This document shows positions 3,631 to 11,769 of a stretch of DNA of 64,000 nucleotides, piece after piece; position 1 is the first letter of the stretch; every line of letters begins with the position of its first letter. The DNA lies in the NCBI RefSeq assembly GCF_003711205.1, contig NZ_CP031013.1, positions 1,116,001 to 1,180,000 on the forward strand, in the 5' to 3' direction. Source of the DNA: Polaromonas sp. SP1 (GTDB taxonomy: Bacteria; Pseudomonadota; Gammaproteobacteria; Burkholderiales; Burkholderiaceae_C). The position numbers were made by a program, and so were the translations under genes. The notes beneath the pieces were generated by a model. That model saw nothing but the letters and a program-made list of their open reading frames with translations. It was not told the origin of the DNA and made no database searches.

Positions 3631-5034
3631 ATGTCTGACCGTTTCTCCCCTTACGACGCCGACCGGCCCCTGATGCTCAAGTGCAGCTGCGGCGGCAACC
3701 ACGCCCCGGCCGATCACCACCCGGAGATGAATGCCGACGGCGCCGCCGCCGAGCTGCGCCGGCGCAGCCTGAGCAGCGAGTTCGAGGCCTACTCCAACGA
3801 ATTTATTGAAGCCACGCTCGTCAAGGCCCTGTTCCCCCAAGACGAAGTGCGCCGCCGCTTCCTGCGCGCTGTCGGCAAAGGCACGGCCATGGCAGCAATC
3901 GCCAGTGTGCTGCCCGTCGGCACCATGCAGGCCATGGCGCAAGACAAGGGCCAGCTGGAAAAAACCAACCTGAAGATCGGCTTCATTCCCATCACCTGCG
4001 CCACGCCGCTGATCATGGCGCACCCGCTGGGCTTCTACAGCAAGGAAGGCCTGAATGTTGAAGTCGTCAAGACCGCCGGCTGGGCGCTGATACGCGACAA
4101 GATGATCAACAAGGAATACGACGCCACGCACTTCCTCAGCCCCATGCCGCTGGCCATCTCGATGGGTGTGGGCTCCAACCCGGTGCCCATGAATGTGGCC
4201 ACTATCCAGAACACCAACGGCCAGGCGATCACACTGGCCAACAAACACAAGGACAAGCGCGACCCGAAGATGTGGAAGGGCTTCAAGTTTGCCGTGCCCT
4301 TTGAGTTCAGCATGCACAACTTCCTGCTGCGCTACTACGTGGCTGAAGCCGGGCTGAACCCCGACACCGACATCCAGATCCGCGTGGTGCCGCCGCCCGA
4401 GATGGTGGCCAACCTGCGCGCCGGCAACATCGACGGCTACCTCGGCCCCGACCCTTTCAACCAGCGCGCGGTGTACGAAGAAATCGGCTTTTTGCACCTG
4501 CTGACCAAAGACCTGTGGAACGGCCACCCCTGCTGCGCCTTCGGCACATCCACAGAGTTCATCCAGAAGAACCCCAACACCTTTGCCGCGCTTTACCGCT
4601 CGGTGCTCACGGCCGCCGCCATGGCGCGCGACCCGAAAAACCGCGAGCTGATCGCCAAGGTGATTGCACCGCAGGCCTACCTGAACCAGCCGGAGACCGT
4701 GCTGACGCAGGTCCTGACCGGCCGCTTTGCCGACGGCCTCGGCAATATCAAGACCGTGCCCGACCGCGCCGACTTTGACCCCATCCCGTGGCAGTCGATG
4801 GCGGTGTGGATGCTGACGCAGATGAAACGCTGGGGCTACGTGAAGGGCGACATCAACTACAAGCAGATCGCCGAAAAAGTCTTCCTGCTGACCGACGCCA
4901 AAAAACGCATGGCCGACCTGGGCCAGAAGGCGCCGGAAGGCGCATACCCCAAGTTCACCATCATGGGCAAGGTGTTTGACGCGGCCAAGCCTGATGAGTA
5001 CCTGAAGAGTTTCGCCATCAACAAGATGGCTTAG
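3631..5034 (+). CDS. nrtA: nitrate/cyanate ABC transporter substrate-binding protein
   Basis: A 467-residue NrtA/CmpA-family binding protein that should deliver nitrate, nitrite, bicarbonate or cyanate to the permease. The periplasmic domain begins near residue 110 (LKIGFIPITCATPLIMA) and carries family blocks such as HFLSPMPLAIS and GYLGPDPFNQRA. The N-terminus is unusual: about 70 residues with a CSCGGNH motif (Cys18, Cys20, His24) precede a twin-arginine signal (RRRFLRAV at 74-81, cleavage near AMAQ). ATG 3631 is supported by GAAAGG just upstream. It is first in an operon with the permease, ATPase and cyanase, so cyanate is a realistic substrate. The start codon of the next gene overlaps the stop. 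Confidence 0.88.
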   Translation: MSDRFSPYDADRPLMLKCSCGGNHAPADHHPEMNADGAAAELRRRSLSSEFEAYSNEFIEATLVKALFPQDEVRRRFLRAVGKGTAMAAIASVLPVGTMQAMAQDKGQLEKTNLKIGFIPITCATPLIMAHPLGFYSKEGLNVEVVKTAGWALIRDKMINKEYDATHFLSPMPLAISMGVGSNPVPMNVATIQNTNGQAITLANKHKDKRDPKMWKGFKFAVPFEFSMHNFLLRYYVAEAGLNPDTDIQIRVVPPPEMVANLRAGNIDGYLGPDPFNQRAVYEEIGFLHLLTKDLWNGHPCCAFGTSTEFIQKNPNTFAALYRSVLTAAAMARDPKNRELIAKVIAPQAYLNQPETVLTQVLTGRFADGLGNIKTVPDRADFDPIPWQSMAVWMLTQMKRWGYVKGDINYKQIAEKVFLLTDAKKRMADLGQKAPEGAYPKFTIMGKVFDAAKPDEYLKSFAINKMA

Positions 5035-5949: not shown

Positions 5950-6744
5950 ATGCAGGGATTCCTGAAAATCGAAGGGCTGAGCAAAGCCTTCACGCCAAGC
6001 AGGCCGGTGTTTGCCGATGTGTCCTTCACCATCAGCAAAGGCGAGTTCGTCTGCATCATCGGCCACTCTGGCTGCGGCAAGACCACCATCCTCAATGTGC
6101 TGGCGGGGCTGGACACCGCCACCGCCGGCCACATCTTTATGGAAAACCGCGAGATAGGCGGCCCCAGCCTGGAGCGCGGCGTGGTCTTCCAGAGCCACGC
6201 ACTCATGCCCTGGCTCACCGTGCGCAAGAACATCGCGTTTGCCGTCGTATCGCGCTGGCCCGACTGGACGGCCGCGCAGGTCAATGCCCATGTGGAAAAG
6301 TTTGTCGCCATGGTGGGCCTGACCCCCGCCATCGACAAAAAGCCTTCACAACTCTCAGGCGGGATGAAGCAGCGCGTCGGCATCGCCCGCGCCTTCGCCA
6401 TCCAGCCCAAGATGCTGCTGCTCGACGAACCCTTTGGCGCACTCGACGCACTGACACGCGGCACCATCCAGGACGAACTGATGGCCATCGTGCGCGAGAC
6501 GCAGCAAACCGTTTTCATGATCACGCACGACGTGGACGAAGCGATATTGCTGGCCGACCGCATCTTGCTGATGAGCAACGGCACCGACAACGACGGCGTC
6601 TACACGCCAGGCCGCATCGCCGAAGAAGTCATCAACCCGCTGCCCCGCGAACGCACCCGCGCCGGCCTGCACCACCTGTCCGGCTACTACGACCTGCGCA
6701 ACCACATCGTCGACTTCCTCGTCACCCGCGCCAAGGCGCATTGA
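5950..6744 (+). CDS. nrtD: nitrate/cyanate ABC transporter ATPase
   Basis: A 264-residue ATPase energising the importer. The Walker A motif GHSGCGKTT is at 38-46, the signature LSGGM at 135-139, Walker B LLLDEP at 156-161 and the switch His in MITHDVDEA. It is the short NrtD/CynD/SsuB form, without the regulatory binding-protein domain that NrtC carries. ATG 5950 puts the N-terminus at MQGFLKIEGLSK, normal for the family; an in-frame ATG at 5890 overlaps the permease and is less likely. It is third in the nrt-cynS operon. Confidence 0.92.
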   Translation: MQGFLKIEGLSKAFTPSRPVFADVSFTISKGEFVCIIGHSGCGKTTILNVLAGLDTATAGHIFMENREIGGPSLERGVVFQSHALMPWLTVRKNIAFAVVSRWPDWTAAQVNAHVEKFVAMVGLTPAIDKKPSQLSGGMKQRVGIARAFAIQPKMLLLDEPFGALDALTRGTIQDELMAIVRETQQTVFMITHDVDEAILLADRILLMSNGTDNDGVYTPGRIAEEVINPLPRERTRAGLHHLSGYYDLRNHIVDFLVTRAKAH

Positions 6745-6792: not shown

Positions 6793-7236
6793 ATGAACCG
6801 CAACGACATCACCGAAAAAATCATCACCGTCAAAGTCAGCAAAGGCATCACCTGGGAATCCGTCGCCAAAAAAGTTGGCCTCAGCAAAGAGTGGACGACT
6901 GCAGGCTGCCTCGGCCAGATGACCTTCGACGCCAAACAGGCCAAAGTGATCGGCAAGATTTTTGGCTTGACCGCCGAAGAACAAAAGTGGCTGCAAGTCG
7001 TGCCCTACAAAGGCTCACTCCCCACCCCCGTGCCCACCGACCCCCTGATCTACCGCTGGTATGAAATCGTCAGCGTGTATGGCACCACCATCAAAGAACT
7101 GATCCACGAAGAATTCGGCGACGGCATCATGAGCGCGATCGACTTCAGCATGGACATCGTGAGGCAGCCGGATCCCAAGGGGGATCGGGTGAATGTGGTG
7201 TTGTCGGGCAAGTTCTTGCCGTACAAGACGTATTGA
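6793..7236 (+). CDS. cynS: cyanase (cyanate hydratase)
   Basis: A 147-residue cyanase, close to the 156 residues of the E. coli enzyme. It converts cyanate and bicarbonate to carbon dioxide and carbamate, which decays to ammonia. The catalytic triad is intact with the right spacing: Arg88, Glu91 and Ser114, matching Arg96, Glu99 and Ser122 of E. coli. The N-terminal part (KGITWESVAKKVGLS) is the usual helix-turn-helix-like domain. AGGAG at 6783-6787 supports the start. Its place behind a transporter operon with a sigma-54 promoter suggests use of cyanate as a nitrogen source. Confidence 0.96.
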   Translation: MNRNDITEKIITVKVSKGITWESVAKKVGLSKEWTTAGCLGQMTFDAKQAKVIGKIFGLTAEEQKWLQVVPYKGSLPTPVPTDPLIYRWYEIVSVYGTTIKELIHEEFGDGIMSAIDFSMDIVRQPDPKGDRVNVVLSGKFLPYKTY

Positions 7237-7420
7237 TTACTCTGACCCGGGATGCCTACTGGCACCCTGGAGTCCCGCGCCGGAGGCCTAGAGCCCTCTA
7301 ACCCGGCACGCAATCAGCAGCAGGCCGAAACCAATATTCACGACCAGCTCGCAATGGGCGCGCCCAAGCGGACCACACCAAACTGCGCGAGCGGAGCAAC
7401 AACAAAGATGACAAGGGAAT
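7237..7420. other. left flank of the accessory island
   Basis: Base composition drops after cynS. An open frame on the minus strand ends in a hydrophobic tail (LVVNIGFGLLLIACR), but it has no start signal or recognisable family. I see no insertion sequence ends, tRNA or target-site duplication. Confidence 0.3.
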
Positions 7421-7690
7421 CTAGGCGTCATCAGACCTCGACTTGACCGCTGAGTACTTCTCAAAACCCGGGAATATCTCGAAGTAGCTGTCCGGAAAGT
7501 GCACGTCGAACTCGTGAAACTTTGCGGATGCGAGAAGTCGCTCGTGCGCTCGTATGGTCGCCTGCCTCGAAACGGCGCTCCGAGCGATGGTATTAGCATT
7601 GCTATTCAACGCATGCACTATTCCTGCAGCGTAATCGGCGAATAGCAGCAGAGGCTCAGATTCCTCGCTAGTCAGCGTGAGCGTAGTAGC
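7421..7690 (-). pseudogene. C-terminal part of the DUF3800-like gene, beyond an in-frame TAG
   Basis: Eighty-nine codons continue in exactly the same frame as the gene at 7691-8260, directly after its TAG stop (7691-7693), and end at TAG 7421-7423. The product would contain LLLFADYAAG, which looks like the C-terminal LQLADYVAG-type motif of DUF3800 proteins, followed by a well-formed ~60-residue tail. No good start codon serves it; a GTG at 7618 would lie beyond the motif. The intact protein would be about 279 residues. I read this as the detached end of a gene broken by one nonsense change, or as a readthrough product. Confidence 0.6.
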
Positions 7691-8260
7691 CTAGTGAAAG
7701 ATTCCGAGTGAATTTATTTTCGGCTGATGTTCGTTCATCGAACGCCACGCCCCAACGAGAGCATCTCTATTCTCTTCACCTTGAATTTCATTATCGAAAA
7801 TCACACATTCCGATATATTCAGTCGACCCTTCCTATCAGTGATACGTGGCAATGTTCCCACCTTTATTGAGTGCCCCATCGCCAGCGTGGAAGCTTGCCC
7901 AAGCAGCAGCATCTTTATCAGTGTTCCAGCCTTCAGGAATGCGATAGGCCCACCAGCGAGCGGAGCGGTCCTCGCATGGATTTCACGGGAATCACGCCAG
8001 AATTCCGACCATCGCTTATCGCGCTTATCGAGCGACCCGGCAGCTATCGACCACGCTTCCCTAAGAAGCAGATCAGTCACCGCAGCAACATGATCGTCAT
8101 CTGAATTTCGCCATTTCGGAAGCCCCGCCGGAATCAATGACCTTATTCTCTTCACAGAACCCGATGGTAAGCATATTGAAGCAACTGTTAGCTTATCAGC
8201 GTTCAGCGCATTCTCAGACACTTGACCCGCGATGTCCGACACTGACGTGATCGCAACCAT
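7691..8260 (-). CDS. DUF3800-like protein, truncated by a stop codon
   Basis: A 189-residue product. Its layout resembles DUF3800, a family with an RNase H-like fold: an early acidic residue followed by a glycine (SDIAGQ, Asp9), a central helical region, and FDNEIQGEENR near residue 160. The C-terminal ADYxAG motif expected of the family lies just past the stop codon in the same frame (7421-7690). The gene starts nine bases after the AAA ATPase gene ends, on the same strand, so the two are probably one operon. Base composition is lower in GC than the core genes around it. Family assignment is by eye and moderate. Confidence 0.55.
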   Translation of the reverse strand: MVAITSVSDIAGQVSENALNADKLTVASICLPSGSVKRIRSLIPAGLPKWRNSDDDHVAAVTDLLLREAWSIAAGSLDKRDKRWSEFWRDSREIHARTAPLAGGPIAFLKAGTLIKMLLLGQASTLAMGHSIKVGTLPRITDRKGRLNISECVIFDNEIQGEENRDALVGAWRSMNEHQPKINSLGIFH

Positions 8261-8269
8261 GTGTGAGCG

Positions 8270-9634
8270 CTACGCGAGAAGACCGAACGTATGTGAAAGC
8301 TGTGCGATGCCACGTAACCTATAGGTTACGGTTCGCCCCTCTTGCTTACGCGTGAGAAGGTTCTGCTTATGTAGTTTTGTCAAATAGTTGCTAGAGAAAT
8401 CTTGCATAGACCGAACAGGGAAACTCTTAAAGTCGCTGGCCCTCGCTTGTCCTGCCTTACCAATTGCTTCTAGAACGGCCATTTCCTTCGCATTCAGGTA
8501 TAGGCCCTTCAGCTCGCTTTCAACAATCTTACGTAAGTAGCTTGCGGCTTGAGGATGCGCCAACTGCTGGTTGATTAGCATCTGGCCGATCGAGGCATTA
8601 AAGGCCGTATCGAATGTCTTTTTGAACCCGGGCGTGTTTTGGACAACTTTAATAGCGGGCGTTTTGAGCACTTGATCTCTGACACTTTCAACAAATTTGG
8701 CGCATATGCTGTTGCTGTATTTAAGAACAAAGCGCATCTCCCCAAACGAGGCCTCATACAGACGCTTATGTGTTTCCTCTGTAAGAGGAGACTTACCTCC
8801 CTTTGAGTTGTGAAATCTAGACACTCGAATGGCGATAGCTTCATGAAGCTCCCCAATTTCAATTGGGCGAATTTCAATTCCGGAACCGGTAGTACGTTCA
8901 AAAACTCTTGGGTCCAGCGACTGAATCAAGCTACCCAAACCGCTTTGCCCGATAAGCACCCACCAAACGTTAGCGATCGAAAATAGAGTGTCACGAAACG
9001 AGATCAACATCGATCCGAGTTGCTCATCGGACAGATTTTCGAGGTTATCTAGAGCGATAACTGCAGATTGAAATCCGAGTGTTGTGACAACCTCAGAGGA
9101 CATCGCCGCCAGAGCATCAGCTATCGCTTCAAAGGATGCATCAGACGCCTTGGGAAGCTGTGCTGTTCGCCCCACAGATCCACCACATCCAAGAACGGAA
9201 ATGCCGAGGCTAAAAGCCGACGTACCTGTGCCGGCCAGCCATTCGCCAATTTCCTTTATCTGCTTGGGAACAGGCTTGGCATTCAGCGCGCACCAAGCAT
9301 CAATTGAACGATATAGCGAATCAACGGCACGAAGCGCGAGTCTCTTTAAGTCGTCTGTCGGCTGTACGGGGCAAAGAGTTCTCGCAGCAAGCAACTTAGG
9401 GCCAAAGGGTGCTAAGTCATTCTCCAAACGATATTGCTGCACGTTGAAGAAGCTGGTTTTTCCGACGCCAGGCGTACCCGAGAGCACCAATACACCACCT
9501 GCAGATGTCCCCAGTTGAGTACAGAGTTCCGTTGCTTCGTTATCGCGCCCCACCAATAGGTCAATATCTTCCGCCCGCGGCAGTAGCGGATTTGTGTTGT
9601 ACGGACTTTCGCGAAAGCCAAGAGATGCCCACAT
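8270..9634 (-). CDS. AAA ATPase with C-terminal winged-helix-like region
   Basis: A 454-residue ATPase of the Orc1/Cdc6-like AAA_16 style. Walker A GTPGVGKT is at 53-60, Walker B VIALDN at 192-197, and a sensor-1-like strand WWVLIGQSG at 224-232. The last ~75 residues (NAKEMAVLEAIGKAGQARASD onward, NLLTRKQEGRTVTYRL) look like a MarR-type winged helix. A near-perfect Shine-Dalgarno (GGAGGAG) precedes the ATG. It lies in a lower-GC island between core metabolic genes, next to a DUF3800-like gene and a small membrane protein. An ATPase with an RNase H-like partner suggests a defence or mobile-element function, but this is inference. Confidence 0.7.
   Translation of the reverse strand: MWASLGFRESPYNTNPLLPRAEDIDLLVGRDNEATELCTQLGTSAGGVLVLSGTPGVGKTSFFNVQQYRLENDLAPFGPKLLAARTLCPVQPTDDLKRLALRAVDSLYRSIDAWCALNAKPVPKQIKEIGEWLAGTGTSAFSLGISVLGCGGSVGRTAQLPKASDASFEAIADALAAMSSEVVTTLGFQSAVIALDNLENLSDEQLGSMLISFRDTLFSIANVWWVLIGQSGLGSLIQSLDPRVFERTTGSGIEIRPIEIGELHEAIAIRVSRFHNSKGGKSPLTEETHKRLYEASFGEMRFVLKYSNSICAKFVESVRDQVLKTPAIKVVQNTPGFKKTFDTAFNASIGQMLINQQLAHPQAASYLRKIVESELKGLYLNAKEMAVLEAIGKAGQARASDFKSFPVRSMQDFSSNYLTKLHKQNLLTRKQEGRTVTYRLRGIAQLSHTFGLLA
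8313..8330. repeat. perfect 18-bp palindrome
   Basis: CGTAACCTATAGGTTACG is a perfect palindrome inside the 3' end of the ATPase gene. It may be chance or a protein-binding site. Confidence 0.4.
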
Positions 9635-9817
9635 TTCTTATATCTCCTCCAACAGAAATTTATCTTGCGAAGTTTCCAAGACTTAACGTCATGCGCGCTG
9701 CAAACTACAGCTCTCGCTAACAAATTCTAGGCTTTTCACGCTTTGATCCCCTCATCCAATCGGAGGGAATTCACGCTTTAAATATCTAACCAACTTGCTC
9801 ACCTGCATTCTTGCTTT
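9635..9817. promoter_or_regulatory. leader of the ATPase gene with three short direct repeats
   Basis: This 183-bp AT-rich gap holds the Shine-Dalgarno of the ATPase gene and three similar 12-mers: TTTTCACGCTTT (9733-9744), AATTCACGCTTT (9768-9779) and TTTTCACGATTT (9815-9826, running into the upstream gene). They may be operator repeats. No confident -10/-35 pair was assigned. Confidence 0.3.
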
Positions 9818-10312
9818 TCACGATTTCTCTAGGTAGCTGCGCAACAACGATTCAAGCTTGGGCAGCCGATCTTGCAGTTCATGAAGTTTGGAGGCTTGGT
9901 TATTGTTGACGTTCTGAAGCCTCGCGGAGATCATTTGCAGTTGAACTGAAAATCTTTCAGTTAATGTCACCATCGATAGAGTTGAACTCCTAATCTCGGG
10001 GGATAACTTATCGCCGCGCTCAATGATTTTCAGAAGAATGCCCTCCAGACCTTCGGCTAGCTCTGCGACTAGATCGGTCTGATTAAACATCGTTTGCTCT
10101 CGGTCACTAATGGGTTGACCCGTATTTTTTCGCTCCCTCTTAAGCGTTTCGGCGTCGACCCGGTATTGCGTGAAAGCGGCTATTGCGCTTCGCAGTAAAT
10201 CTTCATCTCGCTGACGTTCAGCTCGTTTGAAGTAGTGATGCGATGCCAGCGCCGTCCCAACAGCAACTAGCAGTGACAGAGTGGATAGTGCACTATTTAG
10301 GTCAATACTCAT
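9818..10312 (-). CDS. small membrane-anchored coiled-coil protein
   Basis: A 164-residue protein of unknown family. ATG 10312 gives one N-terminal membrane helix (ALSTLSLLVAVGTALASHHYF) followed by a charged, helical, coiled-coil-rich body ending in repeated leucine heptads (LHELQDRLPKLESLLRSYL). A GTG at 10375 would extend it by 21 residues, with no better signal. Base composition is lower in GC than flanking core genes, as in the ATPase and DUF3800-like genes downstream on the same strand. It could be a membrane-tethered component of the same system; nothing proves this. Confidence 0.55.
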   Translation of the reverse strand: MSIDLNSALSTLSLLVAVGTALASHHYFKRAERQRDEDLLRSAIAAFTQYRVDAETLKRERKNTGQPISDREQTMFNQTDLVAELAEGLEGILLKIIERGDKLSPEIRSSTLSMVTLTERFSVQLQMISARLQNVNNNQASKLHELQDRLPKLESLLRSYLEKS

Positions 10313-10527
10313 GCTTATGGCGTTCAAGTCGGACGTACCCAGTGAGCTGTAGCCACTACGGCGCGTCAAGATCACGCGTCTTGGTCACCCAAACATCAGA
10401 GCTCCAGCTAATGGGAAGAGTGTGTCGCTTTTTGGCTCTATCAAAACTACTGGCTTACCCGCCCCATCCCTCTTCCTTTGGGTAAAGGATTCTCGTGACT
10501 CTCTCGAAGCACTTGGCTAAAGGCAAA

Positions 10528-11769
10528 ATGCCACACATGAACTCCCTATCCGGCATCCGCATCCTCGACCTCTCCCGCGTGCTCGCAGGCCCCTGGTGTA
10601 CCCAGACACTCGCTGATCTGGGTGCGGACGTGATCAAGATTGAGCGCCCTGGCACGGGTGACGACACACGCACCTGGGGTCCGCCGTTTTTGAAGGATGC
10701 GCAGGGGGCGGACACCGAGGCCGCTTATTACCTGGGCACGAACCGCAACAAGCGCTCCGTCACATGCGACATTGCGCAGCCCGCGGGCCAGGCGCTGGTG
10801 CGTGCGCTGGCTGCGCATTGCGATGTGTTTGTGGAGAACTTCAAGGTGGGCGACATGGCGCGTTATGGGCTGGACTATGCGTCGCTCAAAGCCATCAACC
10901 CGCGCCTCGTTTACTGCTCTGTCACGGGCTTTGGGCAGACGGGGCCTTATGCCGACCGTGCGGGTTATGACTATGCGATCCAGGGCATGGGTGGGCTGAT
11001 GAGTGTGACGGGTGAGCGTGACGACCTGGGGGGTGGGCCGCAGAAGGTGGGTGTGGCGGTGGCGGATTTGATGACAGGCATGTATGCGACGGTGGCGATT
11101 CTTGCTGCGCTGCGCCATGCCGAGAAGACCGGCGAGGGCCAGCAGGTGGACATGGCGCTGCTGGACACGCAAGTGGCGATGCTGGCCAACCTGGGCGCCA
11201 ACTATCTGGTGAGCGGCAAGGCGCCGGGCCGTGCGGGCAATGCGCACCAGAACATCGTGCCGTATCAGGTGTTTGAAGTGGCGCCTGCCGCTGACGGCAG
11301 CAAGGACCATTTGATTCTCGCGGTGGGCAATGACTCGCAGTATGCGAAGTTTTGCACCGTGGCCAACATCCCTGAGCTGGCAACCAACCCGCTGTTTGCC
11401 ACGAATCGCAACCGCGTGCAGAACCGCGGCCAGCTGGTGCCGATTCTGGAGGCGGTGATGAAGACGCGCAGCAAGGCCGACTGGCTGAGCGCGCTGGAGG
11501 CGGCGAAGGTGCCGTGTGGCGCGATCAACAGCCTGGCGGAGGTGTTTGCCGATCCGCAAATTGAGGCGCGCAAGATGGTGACCGAGTGGCAGCACCCGGT
11601 GAAGGACGATTTGAAACTCGTCTCCAGCCCCATCCGCATGAGCGCGACGCCGGTGCGCACCGACTTGCCGCCGCCGCTGCTGGGCCAGCACACGGATGAA
11701 GTGCTGCGCGAGCTGCTGAACTATTCGGACGCGCAGCTGTCTGAACTCAAACACATAAAGGTGATCTGA
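10528..11769 (+). CDS. CaiB/BaiF family (class III) CoA-transferase
   Basis: A 413-residue family III CoA-transferase, which moves CoA between carboxylic acids through an aspartyl-CoA intermediate. The N-terminal block (LSGIRILDLSRVLAGPWCTQ) and the catalytic Asp180 in GVAVADLMTGMYA are clear. ATG 10528 sits behind TAAAGG; ATG 10537 is a reasonable alternative. The substrate cannot be told from sequence. The stop overlaps the start of an esterase-like gene, so the two are co-translated. Confidence 0.9.
   Translation: MPHMNSLSGIRILDLSRVLAGPWCTQTLADLGADVIKIERPGTGDDTRTWGPPFLKDAQGADTEAAYYLGTNRNKRSVTCDIAQPAGQALVRALAAHCDVFVENFKVGDMARYGLDYASLKAINPRLVYCSVTGFGQTGPYADRAGYDYAIQGMGGLMSVTGERDDLGGGPQKVGVAVADLMTGMYATVAILAALRHAEKTGEGQQVDMALLDTQVAMLANLGANYLVSGKAPGRAGNAHQNIVPYQVFEVAPAADGSKDHLILAVGNDSQYAKFCTVANIPELATNPLFATNRNRVQNRGQLVPILEAVMKTRSKADWLSALEAAKVPCGAINSLAEVFADPQIEARKMVTEWQHPVKDDLKLVSSPIRMSATPVRTDLPPPLLGQHTDEVLRELLNYSDAQLSELKHIKVI

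Follow-up and report, generated by a model that had tools for sequence, protein, structure and literature searches.

A laterally acquired, low-GC segment between cynS and a CoA-transferase gene of Polaromonas sp. SP1 carries an Orc/Cdc6-type AAA+ ATPase of a solitary family

The window, that is, the whole stretch of 64,000 nucleotides analysed here, is part of the 4.5-Mb single-contig genome of Polaromonas sp. SP1. Three frames on the minus strand lie between cynS and a CoA-transferase gene, and the ORF listing confirms this layout as it was originally described (Table 1; the first frame is listed as 7691-8260, up to its first stop codon). On the left lies a nitrate/cyanate-type transport cluster that includes cynS, and on the right a CoA-transferase of the CaiB type, both names being taken from the sequence itself. 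The GC content is 0.46-0.52 in the segment and about 0.60-0.68 in the flanking genes, in agreement with the lower GC that had been noted for the three genes.

Table 1. Features at the cynS/CoA-transferase locus (positions in the window).
Feature	Position	Strand	Evidence
cynS (cyanate hydratase), left core flank	6793..7236	+	ORF of 147 aa; 81-89% DNA identity across the genus
Remnant of a 59-aa membrane-protein gene	7237..7419	-	blastn identity of 76-83%, ending at 7418/7419; alignment
Frame originally called 'DUF3800-like'	7421..8260	-	Translation; 189 aa to TAG at 7691-7693
Orc/Cdc6-type AAA+ ATPase, 454 aa, intact as judged by its motifs	8270..9634	-	Alignment, AF2, Foldseek, sub-threshold Pfam
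Single-helix membrane-anchored helical protein, 164 aa, orphan	9818..10312	-	ORF; hydropathy
Low-GC, laterally acquired segment at a genus-variable spot	7420..10515	.	Comparison with empty and filled sites
CaiB/BaiF-type CoA-transferase, right core flank	10516..11769	+	ORF; homology to relatives from 10516-10521

The original prediction placed an accessory island at 7237-10490. An accessory segment is indeed present between the core genes, but the stretch 7237-7419 does not belong to it, since this stretch is common to sister species and represents a resident small membrane-protein gene outside the island. The resident gene is intact in G621, G605, G592 and G627, where it adjoins cynS (in G627, a fragment of the cynS tail), and in the window its 5' part is missing beyond 7419/7420 and the remaining frame has decayed. 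Because homology of the flanks to relatives ends at 7418/7419 on the left and begins at 10516-10521 on the right, the transferred segment extends over about 7420-10515. The drop in GC and the resident gene cut at the edge show that this segment is horizontally acquired accessory DNA. No transposase, integrase, tRNA, Rfam RNA or convincing terminal repeat was found in it; a 16-nt direct repeat of 81% identity at 7469/10494 was considered as an island end repeat and is of chance quality.

When 40 other genomes of the genus were searched at the DNA level, the flanks proved to be conserved and the space between them not constant. In four species (G597, G611, G603 and G589) the gap from cynS to the CoA-transferase gene is 24-71 bp, so that these sites are nearly empty, and in other members it is 1.4-8.5 kb, with different cargo. 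Among sister species, G621 carries an Mrr-type restriction enzyme with Mrr_N and Mrr_cat, G620 an HNH protein and G592 a methyltransferase; in G627, a remnant copy of the spot holds a TIR-domain protein flanked by pieces of the cynS tail and of the CoA-transferase head, and further unknown genes also occur as cargo. A PADLOC match to 'mad2' in the G592 cargo proved to be an ordinary methyltransferase domain. More distant members of the genus carry metabolic operons in the gap, and the spot is therefore variable and is ruled out as a dedicated defence hotspot. We consider it a genus-level variable site that receives nuclease and TIR genes in some species.

Two sister sites give additional details on this spot. 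At L038 (G627, contig C80, 2997-4164), the TIR-domain gene is accompanied by the small membrane-protein gene. The two are bounded by 65 bp of the cynS tail on one side and 65 bp of the CoA-transferase head on the other, and the intact CoA-transferase gene is located on a different contig; this arrangement is a relic or duplicate of the variable site. At L039 (G620, contig C2), the insert contains a second copy of the cynS 3' end at 4561-4695 (135 bp, 89%) and a shorter piece of it at 6692-6743, along with a duplicated DUF1801 gene. These duplications suggest insertion through recombination at the cynS 3' end.

The membrane-protein gene precedes the ATPase gene by 183 bp in the window, and its product would grow from 164 aa to 185 aa with a start at the GTG at 10375. 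One moderate hydrophobic helix at the N-terminus (hydropathy peak of 1.62 from residue 5) supports a single-helix membrane-anchored helical protein, in line with the membrane-anchored coiled coil that had been predicted. The protein showed no family match above chance in Pfam, NCBIfam and PHROGs, and no relatives in plasmids.

The frame downstream of the ATPase gene starts on the same strand after nine bases, a spacing that the ORF coordinates confirm. Past its in-frame TAG, 89 more codons remain open up to another TAG at 7421-7423, which is the edge of the island; the chance of such an open run is about 0.03. In this extension, SEESEPLLLFADYAAGIVHAL resembles by eye the 'lQlADlvag' of DUF3800, and a multiple alignment puts the stretch there; the by-eye motif reads 'FADYAAGI'. 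The open extension and this motif together suggest an interrupted gene. The codon usage of the two halves of the frame against the ATPase model (z of about 3.4 and 1.9) is weak and not decisive. We consider it likely, from its reading frame, that the downstream frame is a gene interrupted by an in-frame stop. Searches of plasmids, phages, viral contigs and 389 genomes of the order gave no relatives of its product. The best weak match, to L096 in a small local search (E 4e-4), is to a sensor histidine kinase and was regarded as chance.

The product of this frame had been called DUF3800-like, and this assignment is not supported. No match to DUF3800 (PF12686) was obtained in Pfam up to E 1 (gathering score of 21 bits), in NCBIfam, in PHROGs, or from this frame when the genome, translated in six frames, was searched with PF12686 up to E 10, and profile alignment with hhalign to nine DUF3800 proteins gave no match. 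The (Y/F)xDES(G) motif at the N-terminus of DUF3800 proteins is absent, the aligned stretch reading GQVSENAL. A single-sequence AF2 model is uninformative at a pLDDT of 34, its order of secondary-structure elements being compatible with an RNase H-like fold. The resemblance to DUF3800 proteins is limited to the C-terminal by-eye motif and the gross length.

On the other hand, the description of the central gene as an Orc/Cdc6-like ATPase with a winged-helix tail is upheld. The alignment shows Walker A (GTPGVGKTS), a Walker B-type LDNLENL, and conserved RD, IGQ and GE(M/I)RFV motifs, as well as a conserved N-terminal signature, W..LGF..(N/S)P(Y/F); the set of AAA+ motifs is complete and, as read from the sequence, intact. 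In Pfam, AAA_16 and AAA_22 appear below threshold only. The AF2 model has a mean pLDDT of 69; it is weak around the P-loop (below 50 for residues 51-58 and 231-274), and its terminal part is well predicted as a winged helix, the secondary structure ending in helix-helix-strand-strand. In a Foldseek search with this medium-confidence model, the best PDB matches were archaeal ORC2 (1w5t, E 2.1e-5) and Cdc6 (1fnn, E 4.5e-5), and TnsC and RdrA were found lower in the list.

These features allow a comparison with known ATPases. At the level of the fold, the protein has what characterizes Orc1/Cdc6-type AAA+ proteins, namely Walker A, Walker B, sensor motifs and a C-terminal winged helix, and it shares the AAA+ domain, the helical lid and the winged helix with the archaeal and eukaryotic Orc1/Cdc6 initiators. 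However, it falls far short of the model of the initiator family, NCBIfam TIGR02928, with 13.4 bits against a cut-off of 181.3. It also shows about 13% identity, carries LDN..E where Walker B normally has DE, and has no origin context. The transposition regulators TnsC and TniB are likewise AAA+ ATPases acting on DNA, but the segment has no TniQ or TnsB-like genes, and the winged-helix tail sets the ATPase apart from them. RdrA of RADAR and the nSTAND/AAA_16 defence ATPases show weak structural or profile similarity, with AAA_16 and nSTAND1 appearing in relatives of the ATPase. The ATPase is half their size, however, and lacks a sensor or effector domain and RdrB or another partner.

Relatives of the ATPase were sampled through short exact peptide patterns in 84,980 species and through searches of about 2000 genomes, a sampling in which linked examples could be missed. 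The pattern scan gave five relatives with 44-47% identity over the full length, from Bacteroidota, Planctomycetota and Acetobacteraceae, and the whole-genome searches added a sixth near relative (G854) and many distant ones, which are multi-copy in some Planctomycetota; the near relatives as a group have 44-48% identity. The family is unnamed, rare and spread over Pseudomonadota, Bacteroidota and Planctomycetota, with identities of 45-48%. None of 200 other genomes of the host's taxonomic family carries the ATPase, the phage and viral contig collections gave no relatives, and only two distant relatives were found among 72,556 plasmid records. The tree of the ATPase crosses phyla, and the window protein is placed in an open fork with a planctomycete protein and an Acetobacteraceae protein. 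In the literature on DUF3800 or Orc-like ATPases in defence, we found nothing on this family, and we know of no member with a tested function.

The original prediction combined the ATPase with a nuclease-like partner, and the neighbourhoods of the relatives argue against such a conserved pair. No frame like the second gene of the window lies before or after the ATPase at L003, L005, L006 and L085, and at L002 no frame of at least 90 aa starts within 371 bp downstream; L004 was left out of this test because its sequence ends 187 bp after the ATPase. About ten distant relatives examined were also solitary, and a comparison of the downstream protein with the whole genomes of five near relatives gave one chance match only (E 0.16). 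The ATPase is solitary in the relatives sampled (at L002, on the downstream side), and the outcome that the original prediction had named as refuting, homologues that are always unlinked, therefore holds for the sampled relatives that could be compared.

A three-gene phage-defence system is accordingly not supported. A genuine anti-phage system of two genes, or of three if the membrane protein takes part, with the ATPase as a sensor and an RNase H-fold nuclease as the effector, and which the nonsense codon would have inactivated in this genome, would explain the close spacing on one strand, the by-eye motif past the TAG and the secondary-structure order of the AF2 model, and it would fit with the Mrr and TIR cargo of sister species in the same spot. 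However, as the downstream protein shows no statistical DUF3800 signal, lacks the DESG motif and has no relatives that were found, and as the relatives of the ATPase have no such partner, we regard this system as unlikely. The broader proposal of a role in phage defence may still apply. None of the three proteins has a match of note among the PADLOC-DB 2.0.0 profiles, but the Mrr and TIR proteins in the sister cargo and two relatives of the ATPase beside defence-type genes are compatible with a putative defence role. One of these two, at L002, follows a PHP-AAA protein that is akin to TrlF and Ppl, and the other, at L085, has three genes assigned to the PADLOC candidate PDC-M64 in its vicinity; such neighbours hint at a defence setting and do not prove it.

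The company of other relatives bears on a different explanation, in which the ATPase serves a mobile element, in the replication, target choice or maintenance of a plasmid, phage or transposon as in Orc1/Cdc6, TnsC and TniB, and the segment is debris of that element. The relative at L003 adjoins DUF6943 and other mobile-element-type genes, one of the two plasmid-borne relatives has transposition genes beside it, and the fold matches include both Orc/Cdc6 and TnsC. Nevertheless, the segment's lack of a transposase, an integrase and terminal repeats, the near absence from plasmids, the absence from phage and viral contigs, and the mostly single occurrence of close relatives among chromosomal genes make this explanation quite improbable. 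Apart from these points, the relative at L034 (Paraburkholderia dioscoreae plasmid pI, 5977-8431), which adjoins TniQ/TniB/transposase genes, also has DUF2326 and DNA-methyltransferase genes at a distance of about 3.5 kb.

Another possibility is that the ATPase is an ordinary accessory regulator, or that the segment is decaying flotsam, with no role in defence or mobility. A winged helix and a solitary state would suit an ATP-dependent regulator, and the neighbouring frames are orphans, one of them interrupted. However, the ATPase keeps all motifs of its family over deep divergence, which indicates that it has been under selection, and a lateral spread as wide as this points to some benefit, selfish or protective, so we consider this possibility rather unlikely.

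Considering all of these results, we think it probable that the segment represents a laterally acquired, lone AAA+/winged-helix ATPase together with a neighbour that is probably broken and lineage-specific, and that the ATPase acts alone, possibly against mobile DNA. By way of the winged helix and the AAA+ module, ATP-bound protomers may form assemblies on DNA in the manner of Orc/Cdc6 and TnsC; the ATPase would then act without a partner, possibly against incoming mobile DNA or in competition with it. The neighbouring frame would be a lineage-specific passenger, probably already inactivated by its in-frame stop, and consequently a working ATPase-nuclease pair would not be encoded here. The one recognisable functional gene of the segment would be a self-contained Orc/Cdc6-type ATPase from a solitary family that moves between phyla. 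The nine-base spacing counts against this reading of a lone ATPase, since a functional pair that is transcribed together would have just such a spacing. The anti-mobile-element role taken by itself is favoured by the lateral spread, the retention of all motifs and the occasional defence-type company, and we propose it only tentatively. A further step, in which the lone Orc-like ATPase would be the first known representative of a new single-gene anti-mobile-element system, recognising invader DNA, blocking its replication or expression without an effector partner, and spread laterally over at least three phyla, appears to us speculative and rather improbable.

With the three-gene defence system removed, the focus moves to an unnamed, solitary and laterally spread family of Orc-like ATPases, which has intact members in several phyla and is directly testable. 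Among its distant members, relatives of about 510 aa in Planctomycetota (L071-L084, in G1266, G1286, G1322 and G1338) have extra winged helices, with as many as five copies in one genome, and those examined are solitary.
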